From the NCBI RefSeq assembly GCF_030297015.1, contig NZ_AP028056.1, forward strand, positions 2,490,939 through 2,554,938: a stretch of 64,000 bases of DNA. The letters run 5' to 3'. Positions 4,595 through 38,943 of this stretch are shown one piece after another. Position 1 is the first letter of the stretch. The number at the start of each line of letters is the position of its first letter. The notes below the pieces were generated by a model. It did not search any database and was not told the DNA's origin. It saw only the letters and a program-made list of their open reading frames with translations. Both the position numbers and the translations under genes were made by a program. The stretch comes from Brooklawnia propionicigenes (GTDB lineage Bacteria; Actinomycetota; Actinomycetes; Propionibacteriales; Propionibacteriaceae).

Positions 4595-7500
4595 GTGGCA
4601 GACACACGAACATGGCAAACGATGGACGGGAACGAGGCCGCCGCGCGCGTGGCGCACGCCCTCAGCGAGGTCATCGCGATCTACCCCATCACGCCCTCGT
4701 CGGCGATGGCCGAGTCGTCGGACGCCTGGAGCGCGGCCGGACGCACGAACATCTGGGGTGAGGTTCCCGAGGTCGTCGAGATGCAGTCCGAGGCCGGGGC
4801 AGCGGGCGCGCTGCACGGCGCGGTCACCAAGGGCACCCTGGGAACGACCTTCACCGCTTCGCAGGGCCTGCTGCTGATGATCCCGAATATGTACAAGATC
4901 GCCGGTGAGCTCACTCCGGCGGTCATTCACGTGGCGGCTCGCACCATTGCCACGCATGCGTTGAGCATCTTCGGTGATCACTCCGATGTGATGGGCTGCC
5001 GGATGACCGGCTGGGCGATGCTGTGTGCCAGCAGCGTGCAGGAAGCCCATGATTTCGCGCTCGCCTCGCACGCCGCCACGCTGCGTACCCGGGTGCCCTT
5101 CCTGCACTTCTTCGATGGCTTCCGCACCAGCCACGAGGAGAACAAGATTCAGGTGCTCAGCCGCGACGACCTGCGGGCGCTGGTGCGCGAAGAAGACGTT
5201 CTGGCCCATCGCGAGCGCGGGCTCACTCCGGACGCGCCGAGCATTCGCGGCACCGCACAGAATCCCGACGTCTTCTTCCAGGCGCGCGAGGCCTCCAATC
5301 TGTTCTACGACGCGGTGCCCAAGGTTGTTGCGGAGGTCTTCGACGAGCTGGCCGAGCGCACCGGACGCCGCTACTCACTGGTCGAGTATCACGGCGCGCC
5401 CGACGCGCAGCGGGTCGTCATCGTCCTCGGTTCTGCCTGGGGTACCACCTGTGAGGCGGTGGACGAACTGGTGGCCCGCGGCGAGAAGGTCGGCGTGGCG
5501 ACGTTACGGCTCTATCGTCCGTTCCCGGCCGCCGAGCTGATCGCCGCACTGCCGGCCACCACCACCTCGATCGCGGTGCTCGACCGCACCAAGGAACCCG
5601 GTGCTGCCGGCGAGCCGCTGTTCACCGATGTGATGGTTGCCGCCGCGGAGAATGCCACCCGCTTCGACGCCGGCATGCCGGCGATCATCGGCGGACGCTA
5701 CGGCCTGTCGAGCAAGGAGTACACCCCTGCGATGGCGGCCGCCGTGTTCGCCGAGCTGGCCGCCGACCAGCCCAAGAGGCGCTTCACGGTCGGCATCAAC
5801 GACGACGTGACGCATCTTTCGCTGCCGGTACCTGCCGATTTCCGCACCTCGACCGACGCGCTCACGGCGGTCTTCTTCGGTCTGGGTTCGGACGGCACCG
5901 TCGGTGCGGCCAAGAACACCGTCAAGATCATCGGATCGGATCCGCAACGCTACGCGCAGGGCTACTTCGTCTACGACTCGCGCAAGTCGGGAGCAACCAC
6001 CGTCAGCCATCTGCGCTTCGGTGAGAAGCCGATCAACTCGGCCTATCTCATCGACCGGGCCGACTTCGTCGCGGTGCACCAGTTCGAGCTGCTATTCCAG
6101 ATGCGCACTCTCGATCTGGCCAAGCCCGGCGCCACCGTGCTGCTCAACTCGCCCTACGGCGACCGCACCTGGGACGAGTTGCCCGCCGAGATCCGCGATC
6201 TGATCGTCCAACGTGAGTTGTCGGTCTGGGTGATCGACGCCGCTGCCGTCGCACACGCTGCCGGCCTGGGTAAACGCATCAACACCGTGATGCAGCCCTG
6301 CTTCTTCTATCTGTCGGGCGTGGTTGCGCGCTCCGATGCGATCTCGCAGATCAAGGCCTCCGTCGAGGCGACCTACGGCCGCCGCGGACGCACGGTGGTG
6401 GAGCGCAACTTCGCGGCCATCGACGGCGCCATCGCCGCGCTGGAGCCGTTGAGGATCACCGAAGCCGGCACCACGACGATTCACCGGATGCCTCCGATGC
6501 CCGACAGCGCGCCGGACTTCGTCAAGCAGGTCACCGCGACGATGCTGCGTGGCGAGGGCGATCTGCTGCCGGTCAGCGCGATGCCGGTCGACGGCACCTG
6601 GCCCAGCGGTACCGCGAAGTTCGAGAAGCGTGGTATCGCCGAGGAGATCCCGATCTGGGATCCGAGCCTGTGCATCGACTGCGGCAAGTGCGCGATCGTC
6701 TGCCCGCATTCGGCGATTCGCATCAAGGTGGCCCCGGCCGACCAGCTGGAAGGCGCGCCGGACACCTTCAAGTCGAAGCCCTACAAGGACCGCAATCTCA
6801 AGGGTCACCAGCTGGTCGTCCAGGTCGCCCCCGACGATTGCACGGGCTGCGGAATCTGCGTCGATGTCTGCCCGGCACGGTCGAAGACCGAAGTCAAACA
6901 CAAGTCGATCAACCTCGAACCGCGACGCGATCACCTGGACGCCGAGCGCGCCAATTACGACTTCTTCCTGGGAATCCCCGACCTCGACCGCACGAAGGTG
7001 CGCCACGATCAGGTCAAGGGCGCCGCCCAGTTGGAGCCGCTGTTCGAGTTCTCGCTGGCCTGCTCGGGTTGTGGTGAGACGCCGTATATCCGCACGCTCA
7101 CCCAGCTGTTCGGTGACCGGCTGATCATGGCGAATGCGACCGGGTGCTCGTCCATCTACGGCGGCAACCTGCCGACCAGCCCGTTCACCACCAATGCGCA
7201 GGGCCGCGGCCCGGCCTGGAGCAACTCGCTGTTCGAGGACAACGCCGAGTTCGGGCTGGGGATTCGGCTGGCCTGGGAGATGCAGAACTCGCAGGCGCGC
7301 CGGCTGCTGGGTGAACTGCGTGGGTCACTGGATGAGGAGCTGGTGGCGGGGATTCTCGGCGCCGATCAGTCCGGTGAAGCCGGAATCATCGCCCAGCGCG
7401 AGCGGGTGGCTGTGCTGAAACAGCAGCTGGCCGGTGTCGGTGATGCCAAGGCGTCGACGCTGTTGACCCTTGCGGACGAACTGGTGACCAAGAGCGTGTG

Positions 7501-25167: not shown

Positions 25168-26415
25168 TCAGCTGATGAATCGGTCCAGATCCGAGGTGTC
25201 ACCTCGGGCGATGTTGCCGAACAGTTCCGCGGCGGCCGCGTCGTCCCAGATCACCACGGACTGGCCGTCGTCGGTCCAGCCGTCGGTGCTGGCGATCGGC
25301 ACCACCAGGGACAGTCCGTTGCCGCCCGACACGCTCAGCAAAGCCATGCCGGCGCCCATCAGATCGAGCAGGCCGGTCTGATCACCCTTGTTCAGCATGC
25401 TGGCCACCGCCATGGCGGTGCTCCAGTACTTGATCGGATTGAGGATCGTGGACGGGGTGGCGGCCTTGGCGACCACCTTGCCGATCACTTCACGCTGCCG
25501 CTTGGCGCGCCCGATATCACCCTCGGGGTCGGAGTAGCGCATCCGCACGTAGGCCAGCGCCATGTCGCCCTTGATCAGGCTGCATCCGGCGGGCAGGTCG
25601 AGCCCCGACAGCTCGTCGTTGACGGCTGTGTCGACGCAGACCTCGATGCCGCCGACCGCATTCACCAGATCCGTGAAGCCCTCGAAGCCGATCTCCAGAT
25701 AACCGTCGAGTTGGACGCCGGTCGCTTGTTCGACGGTGTCCTGCAGGAGGGCGGCGCCGCCATAGGAGTACGCGGCGTTGAGTTTGTTCTGCCCGTATCC
25801 GGGGATCGTGACATACGAGTCACGAGGCAGGCTGATCAGTACCGAGCGTCCGGTCGGCGGCCGGTAGAGGATCAGGATGGTATCGGCCCGCGCGCCGTCG
25901 ACTCCCTCCCGGGAGTCGCTGCCGACCAGCAGCACGGCCGTGCCCGGCTGCCGGGCGAGCCGGTAGGCGGAGTTCGATTCTTCGACCGATCCCATTCGTC
26001 CCAAGGCGATGACCGGAACGGCGACCAGCCAGACGACGAATGCGACCAGCAGAATGACGATGATGCGCAGCGGCGAACGGGGTCGCCGTTTACGCGGTGC
26101 CGGCCGGGCGTGCTGAGGTGCCGGTGCGGCGCTCGGGTGCTGCGCCGGACGCTGCGGTGGCCTGGACGCCTGGGCCGGCTGAGGTCTGGACGGGGAGGCC
26201 GAATGCCGCGCCCGTGGCTGCTCAGCGGCCCGAGAGCCGAGGTGTGAGGTGTCGTAGGCGGGCGTCGAAACCCGCGGACGACCGGCAGCCCCGCCCGCGG
26301 CGGCGTCGGGGACGGCTGCACCGCCCGGCGACGGGCGTGGTGGCTCTGGCTGCTCCGCAGCCGGCCGGCCGTAGAGCCAGTCGAGGTCGGCCTGCCGGTC
26401 AGGGTCGTCGGTCAT
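25168..26415 (-). CDS. LytR-CpsA-Psr (LCP) family cell wall glycopolymer ligase
   Basis: The 415-residue protein has a Pro/Ala/Arg-rich cytoplasmic tail of about 115 residues, one transmembrane helix (IIVILLVAFVVWLVAVPVIA) and an extracellular LCP domain. The domain begins TAVLLVGSDSREG and includes ISLPRDSYVTIPG and KLNAAYSYGG. LCP enzymes attach teichoic-acid-like polymers or arabinogalactan to peptidoglycan. ATG 26415 has TACGCT seven bases upstream. In mycobacteria an LCP gene lies next to the same TIGR03089 and manC genes. Confidence 0.92.
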   Translation of the reverse strand: MTDDPDRQADLDWLYGRPAAEQPEPPRPSPGGAAVPDAAAGGAAGRPRVSTPAYDTSHLGSRAAEQPRARHSASPSRPQPAQASRPPQRPAQHPSAAPAPQHARPAPRKRRPRSPLRIIVILLVAFVVWLVAVPVIALGRMGSVEESNSAYRLARQPGTAVLLVGSDSREGVDGARADTILILYRPPTGRSVLISLPRDSYVTIPGYGQNKLNAAYSYGGAALLQDTVEQATGVQLDGYLEIGFEGFTDLVNAVGGIEVCVDTAVNDELSGLDLPAGCSLIKGDMALAYVRMRYSDPEGDIGRAKRQREVIGKVVAKAATPSTILNPIKYWSTAMAVASMLNKGDQTGLLDLMGAGMALLSVSGGNGLSLVVPIASTDGWTDDGQSVVIWDDAAAAELFGNIARGDTSDLDRFIS

Positions 26416-26422
26416 GCCAGCC

Positions 26423-26428
26423 AGCGTA
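26423..26428 (-). promoter_or_regulatory. -10 hexamer TACGCT of a leaderless promoter (LCP gene)
   Basis: Seven bases separate it from ATG 26415. Confidence 0.6.
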
Positions 26429-26524
26429 TTCCTCACGGCGACTGGCAACAGGGTCAAATCGCCTCGAAGCGGCGAGCCGGCAGGCGTTCGGCCGGCTCGA
26501 GCAGCAGCATGCGTGAGTCGGGGC

Positions 26525-27256
26525 TCAGGCGAGGGTCGCGCGCTCCTGGCGGGCCAGGGAATCCCGCTGGTCTGGCGTGCCGCCGACCGCGATCACGGTC
26601 GAACCGCCGCCCAGGATCGGAGCCACCAGGGCGTGGCAGACCATCGTCCACGGGTCGGGGCCGGGACTGAGCAGCAGCCGCTCGCAGGACGGCGAGACAG
26701 CGCCCAGTTCATCCCAGTTGTGCGGTGTCTCGGCGTCGAAGCAGACGGCAGCTTCGGGCGCGACCCGCCAGTGCACGTCCGGCTGGCTGAGCACTTCGGC
26801 GTAGTCGGTGACCCCGTTCGGGCGTTGCATGAATCCCGCCCCGAGCGGGTGCAGCGAGCAGGCGATCGTCTCGACCCCCGGCACCGGATGCGGGTCGTGC
26901 GGACCCACCACCACGGCGTCCAGCAGATCGATCAAGGCCAGTCCCTCGCGTGAGGTGGCCACCACTTGGCCGCCGAGCTGCCAGGTGGCCATTGTCCAGA
27001 CCAACCCGACCCAGTGCCCGGGATCGGTGATCAGCAGCGTGTTGGCCACCCGCGGGAACTCGTCCACATCCATCGAGACCAGCAGATTCGCCGACTTGTC
27101 GACCCAGTTCGCGAACGTTCGCCCCGACAGCTCGGTGCGGAATCCCTTGTCGAGGTCGTACCAGGTGATGAGCGGACCGGAACCTGCCGTGGCAACCCGG
27201 TCTTCGAGCGCGGCCAGCAGATCGCTGACCGGGGGCGTGTTCGCGGGTAGGGCCAT
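26525..27256 (-). CDS. TIGR03089 family protein
   Basis: This 243-residue protein matches the actinobacterial TIGR03089 family, seen in features such as PLITWYDLDKGFRTELSGRT and FANWVDKSANLL. The family resembles the N-terminal part of AMP-binding acyl-CoA synthetases but is too short to hold the full domain, and its function is unknown. It lies between the LCP gene and manC, as in mycobacteria. Its start is 31 bp from that of the divergent manC. Confidence 0.8.
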   Translation of the reverse strand: MALPANTPPVSDLLAALEDRVATAGSGPLITWYDLDKGFRTELSGRTFANWVDKSANLLVSMDVDEFPRVANTLLITDPGHWVGLVWTMATWQLGGQVVATSREGLALIDLLDAVVVGPHDPHPVPGVETIACSLHPLGAGFMQRPNGVTDYAEVLSQPDVHWRVAPEAAVCFDAETPHNWDELGAVSPSCERLLLSPGPDPWTMVCHALVAPILGGGSTVIAVGGTPDQRDSLARQERATLA

Positions 27257-27287: not shown

Positions 27288-28364
27288 GTGCGCTACGTAG
27301 TCATCATGGCCGGCGGATCTGGAAAACGACTGTGGCCGCTGTCGCGGCGAGGCGAGCCCAAGCAACTGTTGCCGCTGTTCGACGGCAAGAGCCTGCTGCA
27401 GCTGGCCTATGAGCGGGTTCGCGGCGTGGTTGCGGCCGAGAACGTGCTGGTCTGCGCGGGCGCCGCCTACTCCGATGTTGTCGCTGCCCAGCTGCCGGAG
27501 GTGCCGGTCGCCAACATTCTCGGGGAGCCGGAGGGACGGGACTCGCTGAATGCGGTGGCCTGGCCGGCGGCGGTGCTTGCCCGGCGCGATCCGGACGCGG
27601 TGGTGGCGGTGGTGACCGCCGATCAGCTGATCACCCCGGTCGACGTCTTCGCCAGGGCGCTGGACGACGGCTTCCGGCTGGCGACCGATGATCCGGGGGC
27701 GCTGGTGGCGTTCGGTGTGGTGCCGACCAGCCCGCACACCGGCTACGGCTATCTGGCGCGGGGCGCCGACATCGCCGGGTACGGCCTGGCCAGCGAGATC
27801 ACCGAGTTCAAGGAGAAGCCCGATCTGGCCACCGCCGAGACCTACCTGGCGTCCGGGCGGTACTGGTGGAACGCCGGCATGTTCGTCTGGCGGGCCGCCA
27901 CCCTGCTCGATCAACTGCGTATCCTGATGCCGCAGACCTACCAGAAGGTCCTCGAACTGGCCGAGCATCCCGAGCGTCTCGCCGAGATCTACCCCCACCT
28001 GGTCAAGATCTCCGTCGACTACGCGGTGATGGAACCGGTCTCGCACGGCCAGACCGGCGCCCACATCGTCGCCGTCGCCCTGGCGATCCAGTGGGCGGAC
28101 GTCGGCAGCTATGCCGCGCTTCAGGAAGTGCTCGACCACGACGAGGGCGGCAACGCACGGGTCGGAACGGTGGTCACCGCCGATGCGTCCGGCTGCCTGC
28201 TGGTCAACGATCAGCCCGGCACGGTGCTGGGAGTGGTCGGCATCCAGGATTTGTTCGTGGTTCGAACCGCCGACGCCACGGTGGTCGGCTCGCTGGCGGC
28301 CAGCCAGCAGGTCAAACAGTTGGCGGATAAGGTCGCTGCAGAGGTTTCTGCCGAACTAGCTTGA
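27288..28364 (+). CDS. manC: Mannose-1-phosphate guanylyltransferase
   Basis: The 358-residue enzyme makes GDP-mannose from mannose-1-phosphate and GTP. The nucleotide-binding signature VVIMAGGSGKRLWPLSRRGE is at the N-terminus, with the FAFG/FKEKP-type motif ITEFKEKPDL further on and a C-terminal beta-helix-like part. It lacks the isomerase domain of bifunctional enzymes. It starts at GTG 27288 without a ribosome binding site. Its substrate would be supplied by the phosphomannomutase at 35514-36293. Confidence 0.93.
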   Translation: MRYVVIMAGGSGKRLWPLSRRGEPKQLLPLFDGKSLLQLAYERVRGVVAAENVLVCAGAAYSDVVAAQLPEVPVANILGEPEGRDSLNAVAWPAAVLARRDPDAVVAVVTADQLITPVDVFARALDDGFRLATDDPGALVAFGVVPTSPHTGYGYLARGADIAGYGLASEITEFKEKPDLATAETYLASGRYWWNAGMFVWRAATLLDQLRILMPQTYQKVLELAEHPERLAEIYPHLVKISVDYAVMEPVSHGQTGAHIVAVALAIQWADVGSYAALQEVLDHDEGGNARVGTVVTADASGCLLVNDQPGTVLGVVGIQDLFVVRTADATVVGSLAASQQVKQLADKVAAEVSAELA

Positions 28365-29394: not shown

Positions 29395-29658
29395 ATGCAG
29401 CCCTTGCAGGTGCTCTTCGACAACGAAGAAGACGACGGCGTCCTGGCTTGGCAGGAGCAGGCCCTGTGCGCCCAGACCGACCCCGAGGCGTTCTTCCCGG
29501 AAAAGGGAGGCTCCACGCGCGAAGCCAAACGGGTCTGCCAGAACTGCGAAGTCCGCTCCGAGTGCTTGGACTATGCGCTGGCCAACGATGAGCGTTTCGG
29601 CATCTGGGGCGGATTGTCGGAGCGGGAACGCCGTCAGCTGAAGAAGCACGCCGTCTGA
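29395..29658 (+). CDS. WhiB-family iron-sulfur transcription factor (WhiB2-like)
   Basis: The 87-residue protein has the four cluster cysteines Cys25, Cys48, Cys51 and Cys57 in the C-Xn-CX2CX5C pattern, then the GIWGG turn and a basic tail RERRQLKKHAV. WhiB2/WhmD proteins bind a 4Fe-4S cluster and sigma factor and control septation and division. Its position between manC and the pmm/ahcY genes matches mycobacterial whiB2. A good ribosome binding site GGAAGGAGTGGG precedes the ATG. Confidence 0.93.
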   Translation: MQPLQVLFDNEEDDGVLAWQEQALCAQTDPEAFFPEKGGSTREAKRVCQNCEVRSECLDYALANDERFGIWGGLSERERRQLKKHAV

Positions 29659-32700: not shown

Positions 32701-32840
32701 CCGACGTCGTCGCGGTGGGCTGGCAGGCGCTGGCCCTGATCGCGCTGCTGGTGCTGGCCGCTCCGACGATTCAGCGGGCGCACGCCCCCCGCCGCGCACT
32801 GAAGGCCGACCAGGGCAGCTCGGGAGGACAGGGCCGATGA
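29712..32840 (+). CDS. Large membrane glycosyltransferase, family GT2
   Basis: The 1042-residue protein begins with a GT2 catalytic domain (residues about 25-290). The start of the fold is VLAVLVAHNAEQWLGRTLVG, the metal-binding region is WLLHDDSAPNR, and a QLGGLDPAIPLFRDGVDLGW acceptor-side segment follows. After residue 400 it has about ten transmembrane helices and a C-terminal extracytoplasmic part. It probably transfers sugar from a nucleotide or lipid donor onto an envelope polymer. The next gene overlaps its stop by four bases. The exact sugar is unknown. Confidence 0.85.
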   Translation: MDRPEDMWAWAHHSPDDQPTPIDASAVLAVLVAHNAEQWLGRTLVGIARMDHQPGRLVAVDAGSLDGSRALLDKGVHDGLIHTVIDGDPEQGYGANVNLALAQAIADGFEPTMIWLLHDDSAPNRSALGELLLAATVTDDQGRRPAILVPKLLRPKRRNHPDQMSAVGESISPSGQRVPTVEPGDIDQHQQEPAQVLGASTAGLLVTMDAWRQLGGLDPAIPLFRDGVDLGWRANAQGLLVRTCPTAALRHVEAGRVGLRESVLAPDSVQADQAAGMAVAVMHSRRPARTITRISAQSVVTAFGYLLGKSPSLAGSQLRAAAQLRRHKDDLVAAAASRESEATAAVPAGLLPGRGWGTRRFFDRLAGAVSDYYHDLTTEDDSGVLDELTGDDFAGGRQRARLWSPAVIGLLVMLIGCVIASRQLMHFGQLSGPALLPAPADLAQAWTNWTRSDPGMAGSNAPWLGFMALGSTLAFGQPDWFATLLVLGGPALAGWSAFHFLRGIAGPGWWTAVLACLWGALLPLTGATGQGSLDMSALAIALPLLGMAVRRWQTAAVTGADGLRAPAMVAVLIAVLCASMPWAWLLGVAIAVPMGRTRKDLRGMLTVVLGPLVLIAPWLPRLFADPGRLLTGSDPATRLAGNAPDAWDVLAGTTFLPGAPWPVGAVAIGLLWLVAVLGAVRARPADRPRAAVLLGGALVTAILAVLLPRVVITVARVPVRPDPTGLLFISLFALLALAALGIGPDPDRGVADPAGDQSAKPATARIRTLLGAALAVSLCLAYAWWLIGSTSTLHRSSGVLPSYVTGAQESVRNTRALMVDLSSGIAEFNITSAANPSWGRAESPLLALNEQAADEILQVAEQFAQGQPSDDLATRLTELGIGHVWLRGAYPEAVAALGSAAQLSSAVHDEQTVVFTVTTNPSRAMLLDPAGENLRPMADGIVQQADPDTLIVLSSPADSDWHAEIDGQPLPDADSGDWRQAWATQGRTGELRYWLGADVVAVGWQALALIALLVLAAPTIQRAHAPRRALKADQGSSGGQGR

Positions 32841-34468
32841 ATCCACGCCGCGGCATGCCGCCCGAACCGGACGACCCGTTCAGCAACGACGAGACCGATC
32901 TCGAGAAGAGCGCGATCCGGCGCGGACTGTGGCTGGACGAATCCCAGGAAGTCGTCGCCCCCCGCCGGGCATCGCGGGCGCTGCCCGATGACCAGGACGA
33001 CGAGCCCACGCTGTCGTCCATCGATCTGGCGCCCAGCCGGCGCGGGGAGCCAGCCGATGAGGCGGACGAGGAACCCGCAGCCGACCTGCCGCCGGCCGGA
33101 CCCGCCCCGCACAGCCCCGCATCGACCTCACCCGATCAGGCCCCGGAGACTCCGGCCGGCGACGACGACGGATCACGCTGGAGGCTGCGGGTGGTCGCGG
33201 CCACGCTGCTCGGCTTGGGTGCCGCATTCGGATTGGGGGCCATCCCTGCCGAACCTGCGCCGCTGGCGCAGACGATCCCGCTGATCACCGCGATCAGCAG
33301 GATCTGCCCGGCCCCCAATGGCGCCGAAAGCACCCTGCTGGCGGCCAGCCTCGAAGGCGACATCCAGCTGCGCACGATCGGTGAATCCGGCACGTCCGCC
33401 GAGCCCGGGTGGCTGCAGCTGCCCGGACGAACCCAGCCGGTGATCATCAGCCCGGCCGTCCAGGAGTCCGGGGTCACCGGAGGATCTTTGCTGAGCAGCG
33501 ACAGACAGCTGTGGTGGGGCGCCTGCCGGGCCCCACTGGACGACCAGTACGTGCAGGTGCCCGGTGGCGCGAATGCCGACCTGCTGATCATCAACTCGGA
33601 ATCGACCGACGCGCTGGTCGATGTCACGCTGAGCGGACCCGACGGTGAGATCGTCGGCGATGGGCTGCGCGGCATCACCATTCCCGCCGACTCGCAACGG
33701 GTCATCGATCTCGGCTCGTTTGCGGATGACGTGGACGCACTGGGCGCCCGGATACGCACCAGCCTCGGACGGGTCAGCGCCGTCGCCCAGATCGCGCGCG
33801 ACGATGGCGGCGACTTCGCCACCAGCACCGTGCAGTCCACCGGCCTGATCATCGCGGCGGTGCCGGCCGACGCCAGCGGGACCGTCGTGCTGCTGACCAA
33901 CCCGGGAACCAGCCGCGCTGTCGTCCAGATCGAAGCCGTCAGCGAGGCCGGACGCTACGCGCTGCCCGGTTTCGAATCGGTCACCCTGGATGCCCAGCGC
34001 ACCACCGCCGTCGACCTCACCGACGCGATTGGCGGATTGCCGGTCTCTGTGGTGATCTCCGGACGTGACCTGATCGCGGCCTCGGCGGTGGTGACGACCA
34101 ACGGCGATCTGGGGATCGAGCCGGCCCAGGTCGTCGACGAGTCGGTGGCCGCCAATGACCTGGTTGCGGTCGTCCCAGGGCCGGGCCGCCTGCAGCTGGC
34201 CAACCCCGGCGACCAGGAATCGCTCATCGTAATCGACTGGGGAGAAGACCAGGCCGAGGCCACCACAACAGCCTCCGCCGGGACCGTGGTGTCCGTCCCC
34301 ATCCCCGAAGGCGCCGAGACCGTGCGCGTCACCTCGACCGCGCCGCTGTCGGCCGCGCTGCTGCTGAGCGCCCAGGGCCGCTCCGGGTTCGCCATCGCTC
34401 AGCTCGAACCGGCCGCGCGCACCCAGGCGAGCATGCCGGTGGAGATCGATGCGGGCCTGGGCGGGTGA
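32837..34468 (+). CDS. DUF5719 family envelope protein
   Basis: The 543-residue protein has an acidic, proline-rich N-terminal region of about 110 residues, a single transmembrane segment (VVAATLLGLGAAFGLGAIPA) and a large beta-rich extracytoplasmic domain. In actinobacteria such proteins are encoded with the large GT2 protein, as here, where ATG 32837 overlaps the GT2 stop. A partner role in envelope polysaccharide assembly is inferred; no catalytic motif is visible. Confidence 0.75.
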   Translation: MNPRRGMPPEPDDPFSNDETDLEKSAIRRGLWLDESQEVVAPRRASRALPDDQDDEPTLSSIDLAPSRRGEPADEADEEPAADLPPAGPAPHSPASTSPDQAPETPAGDDDGSRWRLRVVAATLLGLGAAFGLGAIPAEPAPLAQTIPLITAISRICPAPNGAESTLLAASLEGDIQLRTIGESGTSAEPGWLQLPGRTQPVIISPAVQESGVTGGSLLSSDRQLWWGACRAPLDDQYVQVPGGANADLLIINSESTDALVDVTLSGPDGEIVGDGLRGITIPADSQRVIDLGSFADDVDALGARIRTSLGRVSAVAQIARDDGGDFATSTVQSTGLIIAAVPADASGTVVLLTNPGTSRAVVQIEAVSEAGRYALPGFESVTLDAQRTTAVDLTDAIGGLPVSVVISGRDLIAASAVVTTNGDLGIEPAQVVDESVAANDLVAVVPGPGRLQLANPGDQESLIVIDWGEDQAEATTTASAGTVVSVPIPEGAETVRVTSTAPLSAALLLSAQGRSGFAIAQLEPAARTQASMPVEIDAGLGG

Positions 34469-34486: not shown

Positions 34487-34921
34487 TCAGTCGTCGTCGA
34501 TCTCGGGATCCAGATCGTGCATCGAGCGCCCGGTAAGCGCGGACAGCTGCTCCACCAAGGTGATGTGAACCAGATCGCGCAGGTCCGCGCGGTCGGAGGC
34601 GCGGCGTTCCAGGGGACGCCGGAAAATCACGATGCGGGCCGGACGAGTGGTGGTGGCGTCGATGGCAGCCGCCAGCGGCACCCGCTCCAGCAATGCCCAG
34701 TCGAAGGTGGAGCTGGGCACGTCCTCCACCCCGATATCGACTCCGACCAGGGCATCCGGACAGGTCTGCATCAGCCGCTGGACCGAGGCCGTGATCGCCT
34801 GAATGAAGAACTCCGCGGCGCTGACATGGCCCGGCAACCGCATCGGCGCACCGGTCAGGGGGTTGGGCAGCGAGAGCGGTCCCCGCACGCCTCGGCCATG
34901 ACGGTCACGTCTGTCGGTCAT
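34487..34921 (-). CDS. Metallopeptidase-like protein with degenerate zinc motif
   Basis: The 144-residue protein corresponds to the small metallopeptidase-like family encoded beside whiB2 in mycobacteria. It begins with a basic RRDRHGRGVRGPL segment and ends DLDPEIDDD, both typical. At the place where zincins have HExxH it reads HITLV, so the glutamate and second histidine are missing and peptidase activity is unlikely. ATG 34921 has TAGAGT six bases upstream. It is convergent with the DUF5719 gene. Confidence 0.75.
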   Translation of the reverse strand: MTDRRDRHGRGVRGPLSLPNPLTGAPMRLPGHVSAAEFFIQAITASVQRLMQTCPDALVGVDIGVEDVPSSTFDWALLERVPLAAAIDATTTRPARIVIFRRPLERRASDRADLRDLVHITLVEQLSALTGRSMHDLDPEIDDD

Positions 34922-34933: not shown

Positions 34934-34997
34934 ATGCTCAGGTTGAGAAACACGCGGCTCCAGCTGCCTGGATCTGGCCTGACCGGGTGCCACGGGT

Positions 34998-35003
34998 TAG
35001 CGT
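34998..35003 (+). promoter_or_regulatory. -10 hexamer TAGCGT of a leaderless promoter (DUF3499 gene)
   Basis: Seven bases separate it from GTG 35011, which is immediately followed by ATG 35014. Confidence 0.6.
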
Positions 35004-35010
35004 GGGGGTC

Positions 35011-35388
35011 GTGATGAACAGGCAATGCACCCGCAGCGGCTGCAAGGGCCGGGCCGTGGCCACATTGACTTACGTGTACGCGGACTCCACCGCCGTGCTC
35101 GGCCCCCTCGCGCTGCAGGCGACGCCTGGCTGCTACGACCTGTGCGCCACCCACGCGTCCAAAATGACCGTCCCGCAGGGCTGGGAGGTCATCCGGCTCG
35201 CCGAACCCGACACGCTCGTCCCCGAACCGGACGAGGACGATCTGCTCGCCCTCGCCAATGCCGTCCGCGAGGTCGGCTTCTCGGACAGCCCGAACAGCGG
35301 CCCGCAGCCCGGCAACCCGGATTCGGTGGTCGAACTGGGACGCCGTGGACACCTCAGGGTAATCGCCGACGCGCAACGGCGCATCTGA
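35011..35388 (+). CDS. DUF3499 family protein
   Basis: The 125-residue protein begins with RQCTRSGCKGRAVATLTYVY and contains YDLCATHASK, giving four cysteines and a histidine that could bind zinc. This is the actinobacterial DUF3499 family, encoded next to the phosphomannomutase gene in mycobacteria as well. GTG 35011 fits the leaderless spacing; ATG 35014 is the alternative. Function unknown. Confidence 0.82.
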   Translation: MMNRQCTRSGCKGRAVATLTYVYADSTAVLGPLALQATPGCYDLCATHASKMTVPQGWEVIRLAEPDTLVPEPDEDDLLALANAVREVGFSDSPNSGPQPGNPDSVVELGRRGHLRVIADAQRRI

Positions 35389-35513: not shown

Positions 35514-36293
35514 GTGAATCAGCATGCCCAGATCCGCATGGTCGCGTTCGACCTGGATGACACCCTCGCTGAATCGAAGTCCCCACTTGAGGAATCGATG
35601 GCCCGTACACTCGCCGATCTGCTCGCGGTGTGCCCGGTCTGCATCATTTCGGGTGGCCAGTTCGAGCAGTTCGACACTCAGCTATTGGCCAACCTGCCGC
35701 CCGACACCAACCTCGATGCGCTGCACCTGATGCCGACCTGCGGCACCCGCTACCTGCGCTTCTACGAAGGACTGTGGCACGAGGTCTACGCCCACGACCT
35801 CTCCCACGCGCAGAAGCTGGCGGCCACCGAGGCACTGGAGAACTGTGCGAAGAGACTGGGCCTGTGGGAGCCCGATGATCTGGTGAGCGGGCCTCGCATC
35901 GAGGACCGCGGTTCACAGATCACCTACTCCGCGCTGGGCCAGCAGGCCGCGGTCGACGACAAGAAGGCCTGGGATCCCGACGGCAGCAAGCGGGAGAAGC
36001 TGCGCGCCGCGGTCGCCAAGGAGCTGCCCGATCTGGAGGTCCGCGCCGGAGGCTCGACGTCCATCGACGTCACCCGCCGGGGCATCGACAAGGCCTACGG
36101 CATCACCAGCCTGTCGCGCCAGACCGGCATCGGCCTGGATCAGATGCTGTTCATCGGCGACCGCCTGATGCCCGGGGGCAACGACTACCCGGTCGCCGAG
36201 CTGGGGGTGCCCTGTCATGCGGTGACCGGACCGGCCGACACGCAGACCTATGTACGCGGGCTCATCAACGAGCTGACAGCCGACGGGGAGTGA
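35514..36293 (+). CDS. Phosphomannomutase, eukaryotic-type HAD superfamily
   Basis: The 259-residue protein is a HAD-fold enzyme resembling eukaryotic PMM. The DXDXT motif is FDLDDTLAESKSP (Asp13, Asp15), followed by IISGGQFEQFD, the substrate-side GIDKAYGI lysine, and the acidic loop GDRLMPGGNDYPVAELG, very like PMM2. It would interconvert mannose-6-phosphate and mannose-1-phosphate for manC. In the mycobacterial version of this locus that job is done by a larger, unrelated phosphohexomutase. GTG 35514 is chosen over an open frame reaching back to 35025. Confidence 0.88.
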   Translation: MNQHAQIRMVAFDLDDTLAESKSPLEESMARTLADLLAVCPVCIISGGQFEQFDTQLLANLPPDTNLDALHLMPTCGTRYLRFYEGLWHEVYAHDLSHAQKLAATEALENCAKRLGLWEPDDLVSGPRIEDRGSQITYSALGQQAAVDDKKAWDPDGSKREKLRAAVAKELPDLEVRAGGSTSIDVTRRGIDKAYGITSLSRQTGIGLDQMLFIGDRLMPGGNDYPVAELGVPCHAVTGPADTQTYVRGLINELTADGE

Positions 36294-36295
36294 CG

Positions 36296-36499
36296 ATGAA
36301 TACCGACAATGCCGTGGACGAATTGGGTCTGACCAGGCAGTTCCTCGAGATCGCGGCCTGCCCGGCGTGTCATTCGGCCTTTGCGGTCGACTACGACCGG
36401 GCTGAGCTGATCTGCGTCAACGCCGAATGCGGACTCGCCTACCCGGTGCGTGACGGCATCCCGGTGCTGCTGGTCGATCAGGCACGAAGCACGCGCTGA
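36296..36499 (+). CDS. Trm112-like small zinc protein
   Basis: The 67-residue protein has the Trm112/DUF343 pattern: a CPACHSAF pair near residue 22, then ICVNAECGLAYPVRDGIPVL. Trm112 proteins bind and stabilise methyltransferases in eukaryotes; bacterial versions are less defined. It starts two bases after the phosphomannomutase stop with GGGAG upstream, and is followed by the SIS-domain gene after seven bases. Confidence 0.85.
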   Translation: MNTDNAVDELGLTRQFLEIAACPACHSAFAVDYDRAELICVNAECGLAYPVRDGIPVLLVDQARSTR

Positions 36500-36506
36500 G
36501 GCCGAC

Positions 36507-37544
36507 ATGTTCTCCGAATTCGATGAGGCCCGGCTCGACGATCCGGCCGTCCTTGCTGACTATGACGATCAACTGCGGCGGCTGGCCACCGCTGGTGCCC
36601 GCATTCGTAGTGAGGCGTTGGACGCGCGCATCCCCGCAGACCTGACGATGACACCGCGCGGCGTCATCGTCGCCGGTGCAGAGGCCCGGCTGATCCGTGC
36701 GGTGCTGGAGCCGGTGTGCCCGGTGCCGCTGATCGCCTGGCCGTTGCCCGGGCTGCCGGGCTGGGTCGGAGCGCTCGACCTGGTCGTGGTGCTGGCCAGC
36801 GAAGCCGAGGGCTACCAGAGCCCAGCACTGATGGCCACCGTGGCGGAGGCGACTCGGCGCGGCGCCCAGGTGATGCTGGCCGCTCCGGAGGACTCGCCCA
36901 TCGCGCAGATGATCTCCAGCCAGGCGATCCAGGTGTTCACCCGTTCGGACGACCCGACCGCCGCCGCGGTGGCAGTGCTCGCTCAGCTGCACAATGCCGG
37001 CTTGGGGCCGATCGTCAACACCGAGAACGCGGCGGAGGCGGCCGACATGGTGGCCGAGGAGTCGACCCCGCACCGCGACTTGTCGTCCAACCCCGCCAAA
37101 GACCTGGCGTGCGCACTGGCCGACGCCGACCCGTTGCTGTGGGGCGGATCCGTGCTGGCGGCGCGCGCGAGCCGCCGGTTGGCCGAGGCCATCCGGGCGG
37201 CATCGGGCCGGCATGCGCTGGCCGCCGACGCCGACGAGATCCTCGAGGTCTTGCGGCACGTCAAGCCGCACGATCCGTTCGCCGATCCCTTCACCGATGA
37301 GCAGCAGCGCCGCACGGTGCTGGTGATTCTGGACGACGAGCACTCCGGTGAGGCCGAGCAGCAGTCCGGGCGGTCGCTGCGCGAGACCGCGCAGCGCAGC
37401 GGTGTGCGGATCTGCGAGATCGGTGCGGGGCAGGGCAGCGAGGTCGACCGCTACATCACCTTGCTGATGCAGGGGCTGTACGGCGCCACCTATCTGGCCA
37501 TCGGGCTCGACGGCCAGGAGGGCCGGCTGGGGGCGGACGGCTAG
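36507..37544 (+). CDS. SIS-domain sugar-phosphate isomerase-like protein (TobH-like)
   Basis: The 345-residue protein begins [20 protein letters not shown], as in the SIS/phosphoglucose-phosphomannose isomerase-like proteins found beside manA and ahcY in actinobacteria. Two Rossmann-like SIS halves are suggested by [19 protein letters not shown] and [20 protein letters not shown]. Motifs for a working isomerase are not clear. No separate manA is seen in this window, so a role in mannose-6-phosphate supply is possible but unproven. Its TAG stop overlaps the ahcY promoter. Confidence 0.75.
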
Positions 37545-37554: not shown

Positions 37555-38943
37555 ATGGATTACCGCGTAGCTGACCTCGATCTGGCCGATTTCGGCCGCC
37601 GTGAAATCACCCTCGCCGAGCATGAGATGCCCGGCCTGATGGCGATCCGGGAACGCTACGTCGCGTCCCAGCCGCTGGCCGGTGCGCGGATCTCGGGATC
37701 GATCCATATGACCGTGCAGACCGCCGTGTTGATCGAGACCCTGGTGGCCCTGGGCGCGCAGGTGCGCTGGGCGTCCTGCAACATCTTCTCCACCCAGGAT
37801 CACGCCGCGGCCGCGATCGCCGCCGCCGGCATCCCGGTCTTCGCCTGGAAGGGCGAGACCCTCGAGGACTACTGGGCGTGCACGACCGAGATCTTCCGCT
37901 GGCCGGACGGGCAACTGCCCACCATGATTCTGGACGACGGTGGCGACGCCACCCTGCTGGTGCACAAGGGCGCCGAATACGGACGCGAGGTTCCCCAGCC
38001 GGGGCCGGAGGACTCGCACGAGTACGGGGTGCTGCTCGATCAACTGCGTGCCACCACCGACATCGACTGGGAGGCCATCGCCGCTACCTTGCTCGGAGTG
38101 ACCGAGGAGACCACGACCGGGGTGCACCGGCTGGTGCAGATGGCTGCCGCCGGGACCCTGCGTTTTCCCGCGATCAACGTCAACGATTCGGTGACGAAGC
38201 AGAAGTTCGACAACATCTACGGCTGCCGCCATTCGCTGATCGACGGCCTCAACCGCGGCACCGACATGCTGATCGGCGGCAAGACGGCGGTGGTCTGCGG
38301 CTACGGCGATGTCGGCAAGGGCTGCGCCCAGTCGCTGCGCGGCCAAGGTGCCCGCGTCCTGATCACCGAGATCGACCCGATCTGTGCGTTGCAGGCGGCC
38401 ATGGACGGCTACCAGGTGGTGCGGCTGGACGATGTGGTCTCGATCGCCGACATCTTCGTGACCGCCACCGGCTGCTGCGATGTGATCAGCGCCGAACAGA
38501 TCAGCCGGATGAAGCATCAGGCCGTGGTGGGCAATATCGGCCATTTCGACAATGAGATCGACATGGCGGGCCTGGAGGCATGGCCGGGCATCGAGCGGGT
38601 GAACATCAAGCCGCAGGTCGATCTGTGGCGTTATCCCGACGGCCACGGCGTGATCGTCTTGTCGGAGGGCCGGCTGCTCAACCTCGGCAATGCCACCGGA
38701 CATCCCAGCTTCGTGATGAGCAACTCGTTCGCCAACCAGGTGCTGGCGCAGATCGAGTTGTTCTGCAACCACGACGCCTACCCGCTGGGGGTCCATGTGC
38801 TGCCCAAGCTGCTGGACGAGGAAGTCGCCCGCCTGCACCTGGATGCTCTCGGCGCACGGTTGAGCACGCTCACCGACAAGCAGGCGGACTACCTCGGCAT
38901 CAGTACTGAGGGCCCGTTCAAGGCCGACAACTACCGCTACTGA
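37555..38943 (+). CDS. ahcY: Adenosylhomocysteinase
   Basis: The 462-residue enzyme hydrolyses S-adenosylhomocysteine to adenosine and homocysteine, keeping methylation reactions running. Clear signatures are [18 protein letters not shown], the NAD-binding loop [18 protein letters not shown] and the terminal KADNYRY. Length is typical of the longer bacterial and eukaryotic type. It closes the conserved mannose-ahcY gene block. Confidence 0.98.

Follow-up and report, generated by a model that had tools for sequence, protein, structure and literature searches.

A HAD-superfamily mutase of the PgmH type as the proposed replacement of ManB at the ManB operon position in Brooklawnia propionicigenes and other Actinomycetes

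The mutase gene and the ManB slot

The window analyzed here, a stretch of 64,000 nucleotides, belongs to the genome of Brooklawnia propionicigenes, which forms one contig of 3,211,969 bases, and the genes surrounding the mutase are shown in Table 1. The 259-residue HAD enzyme proposed by an earlier note on this DNA is present as an open reading frame with the motifs DLDDT and MPGGNDYPV and with matches to PF03332 and TIGR01484. Its GTG start is paralleled by a start with VN in five congeners (L007, L008, L012, L014 and L015). A Brooklawnia MAG (L104) stood at the top of the list of named relatives. The mutase follows the DUF3499 gene after 125 bp and its stop lies 2 bp before the Trm112-like gene, after which the SIS and ahcY genes follow, and the end of manC is located 7 kb upstream. 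The ManC-like protein reached 259.6 bits with TIGR01479, below the cut-off of 373 for the bifunctional form, and is predicted to consume the product of the mutase. The SIS protein more likely begins with the ATG at 36507, because the longer frame overlaps the Trm112-like gene. The gene order given earlier (LCP, TIGR03089, ManC-like, WhiB, Zincin_1, DUF3499, SIS and AhcY) is real by family matches, but it had left out three genes, namely those of the GT2, DUF5719 and Trm112-like proteins. The earlier note had likened this order to that of the mycobacterial region, and the comparison made here is with the same slot in the relatives of the window.

Table 1. Genes at the mutase locus, with positions in the window.
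Feature	Position	Strand	Evidence
LCP (LytR-CpsA-Psr) transferase	25168..26457	-	PF03816, 143.5 bits
TIGR03089 family protein	26525..27256	-	132.3 bits, cut-off 85
ManC-like mannose-1-phosphate guanylyltransferase	27288..28364	+	PF00483, 120.3 bits; PF22640, 28.7 bits
WhiB-type regulator (whiB2 position)	29395..29658	+	PF02467, 98.2 bits
GT2-type glycosyltransferase, 1042 aa	29712..32840	+	PF00535, 36.2 bits
DUF5719 protein	32837..34468	+	PF18986, 110.5 bits
Zincin-like metallopeptidase (Zincin_1)	34487..34921	-	PF06262, 45.5 bits
DUF3499, left border of the slot	34987..35388	+	PF12005, 147.5 bits
HAD-superfamily hexose-phosphate mutase, PgmH/PMM family, proposed ManB replacement	35514..36293	+	GTG start, 259 aa
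Trm112-like gene of 67 aa, at the right edge of the slot	36296..36499	+	PF03966, 36.5 bits, frame checked
SIS protein (bact-PGI_C)	36450..37544	+	PF10432, 37.4 bits
AhcY, S-adenosylhomocysteine hydrolase	37555..38943	+	Family profile matches

A ManB-type enzyme encoded elsewhere, which the earlier note had raised as the counter-case, was searched for in the window genome with PF02878 and with a ManB profile at E ≤ 1e-75 and was not found. The PF02878 search recovered only three classical phosphohexomutases, which were GlmM (538 bits, NCBIfam cut-off 448), Pgm (863 bits, cut-off 778) and a PGM2-like protein of 607 aa that passed no NCBIfam cut-off; read by eye, the frame adjoining the PGM2-like gene looks like a nucleoside phosphorylase. 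The slot beside DUF3499 contains an intact ManB in 16 relatives that have no intact HAD, and also in L196, while the ManB of a 17th locus (L050) is decayed. All 16 of these slot ManBs reached at least 788 bits with a profile derived from this same set, vs 190 bits for the GlmM of the window genome. One of them, the slot ManB of L044, scored 604 bits with NF007088, its trimmed form falling just below the cut-off of 618, and the enzyme lost from the window genome is of a kind annotated as PMM/PGM. In three relatives (L036, L041 and L044), the interval from SIS to ahcY was also searched for manA, with nothing clear in L044; what stands there in L036 and L041 looks, by eye, like a cation-efflux protein.

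Family identity, fold and active site

The Pfam PMM profile PF03332 matched the mutase with 46.8 bits (cut-off 22.4), covering only residues 127-251 and profile positions 92-219 of 221, and the NCBIfam HAD-IIB profile TIGR01484 matched residues 9-229 with 54.6 bits (cut-off 41.8); NCBIfam labels the protein only as a 'HAD-IIB family hydrolase'. No match to PF02878-PF02880 or PF00408 was found in the protein up to E = 1. Among 14 control genomes, a PF03332 match was observed in Lactococcus lactis only. A search of the PDB with a profile of 42 rows of actinobacterial homologues revealed the alpha-phosphoglucomutase 4bnd as the nearest solved relative, with 225 bits and with positions 1-243 of the 245 in the profile aligned (169-170 bits for the window protein alone), while eukaryotic PMMs ranged from 50 to 80 bits and phosphatases reached at most 25 bits. 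The protein had been called close to human PMM2, a description that these scores contradict. The AlphaFold model (pLDDT 94.5) superposed on 4bnd with a TM of 0.92 at 35% identity, and on PMMs with a TM of 0.60-0.74 at 20-25% identity. Phosphatases of the IMP-specific nucleotidase type gave a TM of about 0.63-0.72 at 15-18% identity, which is within the PMM range, and therefore the fold alone cannot separate a PMM from a phosphatase.

Across 136 actinobacterial homologues, D13, D15, T17, R132, Q143, K150, S183, D185 and D192 are invariant, and in the GGND loop D224 was observed in 135 rows (one being gapped) and N223 in 134. The cap arginines of PMMs have a phosphate-binding role. These arginines of the eukaryotic type, present in 6i5x, were not found in the actinobacterial rows, all 136 of which carry Q143 and K150 instead. 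As judged from these alignments, the predicted active site is a mix of PgmH-like (Q143, K150) and PMM-like (S183, D185) residues, and the putative mutase is better described as PgmH-like than as PMM2-like.

Distribution, stages and history of the exchange

In the family sample of 117 genomes, an intact ManB was detected in 75 and an intact HAD in 40, with none having both and two having neither (Fisher p = 2.6e-29, a value that ignores kinship). The HAD count was reduced from 42 by taking out G061 (28.9 bits over residues 157-218 only) and the broken gene of G030, and the ManB count from 76 by taking out the decayed gene of G020. The two genomes with neither enzyme are G078, whose contig stops just past DUF3499, and G089 (L185), of 1.6 Mb and 93% completeness, which has an empty slot, a divergent ManC (44% identity) and no HAD or ManB match, so that no phosphomannomutase was recognized in it.

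The class sample was scored on the best six HAD and the best four ManB candidates per genome, and its 394 genomes comprised 28 with HAD, 357 with ManB, three with both and 12 with neither; on the same candidates, ManB was found in none of the 25 genomes whose HAD reached at least 350 bits. The three double carriers (G169, G201 and G230) harbor divergent HADs of 281-298 bits that branch apart from the others and carry Gly in place of D16 and Ala in place of R217, and this branch probably has a different function. The corresponding loci (L101, L100 and L102, respectively) read DLDGT and GDA(L/V)FPGGNDYP, with ManB in the same genomes. In family f37, which near-identical named HAD rows suggest to be Microbacteriaceae, 71 of the 150 genomes contained HAD, 79 ManB and six neither, while six contained both vs about 37 expected by chance, leaving 65 of the 150 with HAD and no ManB. 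The double carriers of f37 are spread over the genera g165, g170 (twice), g172, g185 and g223, and double carriers may represent a passing stage. Both kinds of genome occur within eight genera (g12, g18, g20, g30, g92, g93, g96 and g181). Overall, the exclusion between HAD and ManB is strong and not absolute. G605 (C100, 14119-17376), a fragmented assembly of 190 contigs in which ManB is also present, carries the HAD gene twice, with a distance of about 1.8 kb between the copies.

Coordinates of the 40 family HAD genomes place the gene beside DUF3499 in 21 (g1, g8, g13, g26 and g27) and elsewhere in 19 (g4, g12, g14, g18 and g20); G072 was counted as a slot case though its assembly breaks within the gene, and DUF3499 is reversed in G101 and G079. 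In G020, an assembly of one contig, the HAD is located elsewhere and a decayed ManB still occupies the slot (L050, 4702-5889, minus strand). Its frame is open, and TASHNP, GGEHSAHYYF and SNTEP are gone, so that the catalytic serine, sugar and phosphate loops are lost and only the PGM_PMM domains I and II match Pfam. In G003, G011, G013 and G107, the HAD is also elsewhere and the Trm112 match begins 52-87 bp after the DUF3499 match, a spacing that looks like a clean excision which left the slot empty. By eye, no common neighbor was found for the non-slot HADs of G020, G003, G107 and G011. Outside the family, HAD was beside DUF3499 in none of the 26 class HAD genomes, judged on the best six candidates per genome, and in one of these (G268) a DUF3499 match was not found. 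Among 80 named loci, seven have HAD beside DUF3499, five of the Propionibacteriaceae type (L104-L107 and L109), a Marmoricola MAG (L145) with the order DUF3499-HAD-Trm112-SIS-ahcY, and Salinibacterium xinjiangense (L180) with DUF3499-HAD-ahcY, where Trm112 and SIS were looked for beside the HAD and neither was found.

A broken HAD gene alongside an intact slot ManB was observed in G030. The gene (L063, about 5860-6410) is frameshifted with its C-terminal part gone, and retains 75% identity to that of G068 over 127 aa; it may be the relic of a swap that failed or was reversed, or else reflect a faulty assembly.

A tree built from five slot genes, with 43 rows of which ten were less than half filled, united the 11 in-slot genomes in one clade (98/92), which includes the long branch of G089, and required at least four changes between the ManB and HAD states within the family. 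For the HAD phylogeny called for by the earlier note, 164 sequences were reduced to 137 by dropping 27 duplicates, and the broken L063 was left out of the tree. This tree grouped the family slot HADs with the HAD of G020 and a single row from Bifidobacterium, a grouping whose SH-aLRT of 87 is not strong. The Aeromicrobium HADs fell in a clade (98) otherwise consisting of Microbacterium and f37 rows, and the HADs that g12, g18 and g4/g14 carry outside the slot fell among mostly Microbacteriaceae rows. A single origin of the family HADs (32 rows held together against 40 others) was not rejected, with an lnL difference of 5.4 and an AU p of 0.37, and our claim is therefore one of repeated state switches and not of repeated transfers. 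The same value gives no proof that the genes were transferred separately.

The in-place displacement put forward earlier is strongly supported by the shared slot, the missing ManB of the genome, the 0 of 117 genomes with both enzymes intact and the one decayed ManB, though the kind of enzyme is PgmH-like rather than PMM2-like. We give about an even chance to a broader scenario, in which a PgmH-type HAD can stand in directly for the phosphomannomutase and has displaced ManB many times over in the Actinomycetes. In this scenario the HAD would often have settled at a distant locus, followed by decay and clean excision of ManB, and several lineages (Propionibacteriaceae, L145 and L180) would have received it in the DUF3499/Trm112 slot itself. 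The locus offers a gene displacement in stages, with both enzymes, one decaying, the slot emptied and the slot refilled. The enzyme family is already known, and no published account of a HAD recurrently replacing ManB in Actinomycetes was found in open-licence PubMed Central. Many Actinomycetes draw on GDP-mannose for the glycans of their cell envelope, so an annotation that looks for ManB only may call the pathway broken where HAD stands in.

Proposed function, alternatives and known systems

It is likely that a PgmH-type HAD phosphohexomutase has replaced ManB at its own operon position, and the best reading of the samples is that such a HAD took over the Man-6-P/Man-1-P role of ManB in switches that recurred in Actinomycetes. 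This reading is based on homology, the predicted fold, the precise match of the slot, a search for ManB that found none, an almost complete mutual exclusion across the genomes sampled and one decayed ManB, and from these we infer the Man-6-P substrate, the residue roles and the function in vivo. With catalytic roles as in HAD enzymes generally, Asp13 of DLDDT would take the phosphate and Asp15 would act as acid/base, in a reaction that would use Mg2+ and pass through a hexose-1,6-bisphosphate, and the predicted conversion of Man-6-P to Man-1-P would feed ManC and GDP-mannose. Some activity on Glc-6-P/Glc-1-P is likely as well, by analogy with a HAD relative for which it is reported. Of the 40 HAD genomes, 39 gave a ManC match, and in the whole family sample ManC was found in 113 genomes out of 117. 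All 12 HAD genomes examined have a Pgm-sized PF02878 match, and therefore the HAD is not supplying a missing Pgm; the classical mutase matches number 2-5 per genome in these 12 and 3-5 in 16 ManB genomes, with G012, G057 and G067 being HAD genomes that have only two. Both PMM and PGM activity, with PMM dominant, are reported for Plasmodium HAD5 (PMC8808168). The presence of ManC, the kept Pgm, the PMM/PGM annotation of the lost enzyme and the HAD5 precedent support a probable Man-6-P mutase activity. In L177 (Aeromicrobium) and L186 (G220), the HAD lies 1.3-1.7 kb after a manC homologue of 38% identity, and the HAD of G220 groups with that of L177. Against the main reading stand the name of 4bnd as an alpha-phosphoglucomutase, the Q143/K150 pair shared with it, the double carriers, the genomes with neither enzyme, the superposition of the IMP-specific nucleotidases and an extra phosphohexomutase in some HAD genomes.

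An extra phosphohexomutase match with an open frame of about 474 aa occurs in four of the five g4/g14 HAD genomes examined (not in G111), is shortened in G020 and is missing from the window genome; it could act on mannose where it is present. Loci L203, L204, L205 and L207 show this separate protein of about 470 aa, with FGTGGWR near its start, in a single genome each of g4, g14 and g12 and, shortened, in G020.

An unlikely alternative is that the HAD works as an alpha-phosphoglucomutase in the manner of L. lactis PgmH, with Man-1-P coming from Pgm or the PGM2-like protein and ManB lost otherwise. It would fit the rank of 4bnd as nearest solved relative and the co-occurrence of Pgm and the PGM2-like protein in the window genome, but it leaves the HAD sitting in the ManB slot and tracking the absence of ManB rather than that of Pgm, and the invariant D185 is Asp in the PMM 6i5x and Asn in 4bnd. 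A HAD-IIB sugar-phosphate phosphatase is far less probable still. The HAD-IIB subfamily does include phosphatases that share the DxDxT chemistry, and both the TIGR01484 match and the superposition of the IMP-specific nucleotidases, about as good as that of the eukaryotic PMMs, are in its favor; yet the phosphoglycolate, sucrose-phosphate and Cof models scored far under cut-off, the PDB profile search put mutases well over phosphatases, and the exclusion of ManB would be unexplained. That the exclusion stems from common descent and from sampling, and not from functional replacement, is hard to sustain and scarcely probable at all. The genomes are related, so the Fisher p-values overstate the evidence, and the HAD tree is compatible with one origin in the family. 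These points are countered by the eight genera containing both kinds of genome, the changes of state demanded by the slot-gene tree and the decaying ManB kept in G020.

The proposed replacement of ManB by a PgmH-type mutase can be set beside three known systems. The closest is 4bnd, which we take to be the PgmH of Lactococcus lactis, an enzyme for which Neves 2006 and Nogly 2013 are reportedly the references. It shares with the window protein the fold, the length, DxDxT, R132, Q143, K150, W153-D154-P155 and GGNDYPV, and differs in having Thr, Asn and Asn where the actinobacterial proteins have S183, D185 and D192, positions at which the PMM 6i5x resembles the latter. PgmH is also named a phosphoglucomutase, whereas the window protein occupies a phosphomannomutase slot. 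The eukaryotic PMM1/PMM2 (PF03332) and Plasmodium HAD5 have the HAD family and fold in common with it, but PMM1/PMM2 are more distant than 4bnd in the PDB search and have arginines in place of Q143 and K150. The actinobacterial ManB (NF007088/PRK09542) occupies the same slot, flanked by DUF3499 and the Trm112-like gene, and its reaction is proposed to be identical, but it is non-homologous, a member of the alpha-D-phosphohexomutase superfamily of about 450 aa with four PGM_PMM domains and the TASHNP motif, which carries its serine nucleophile.
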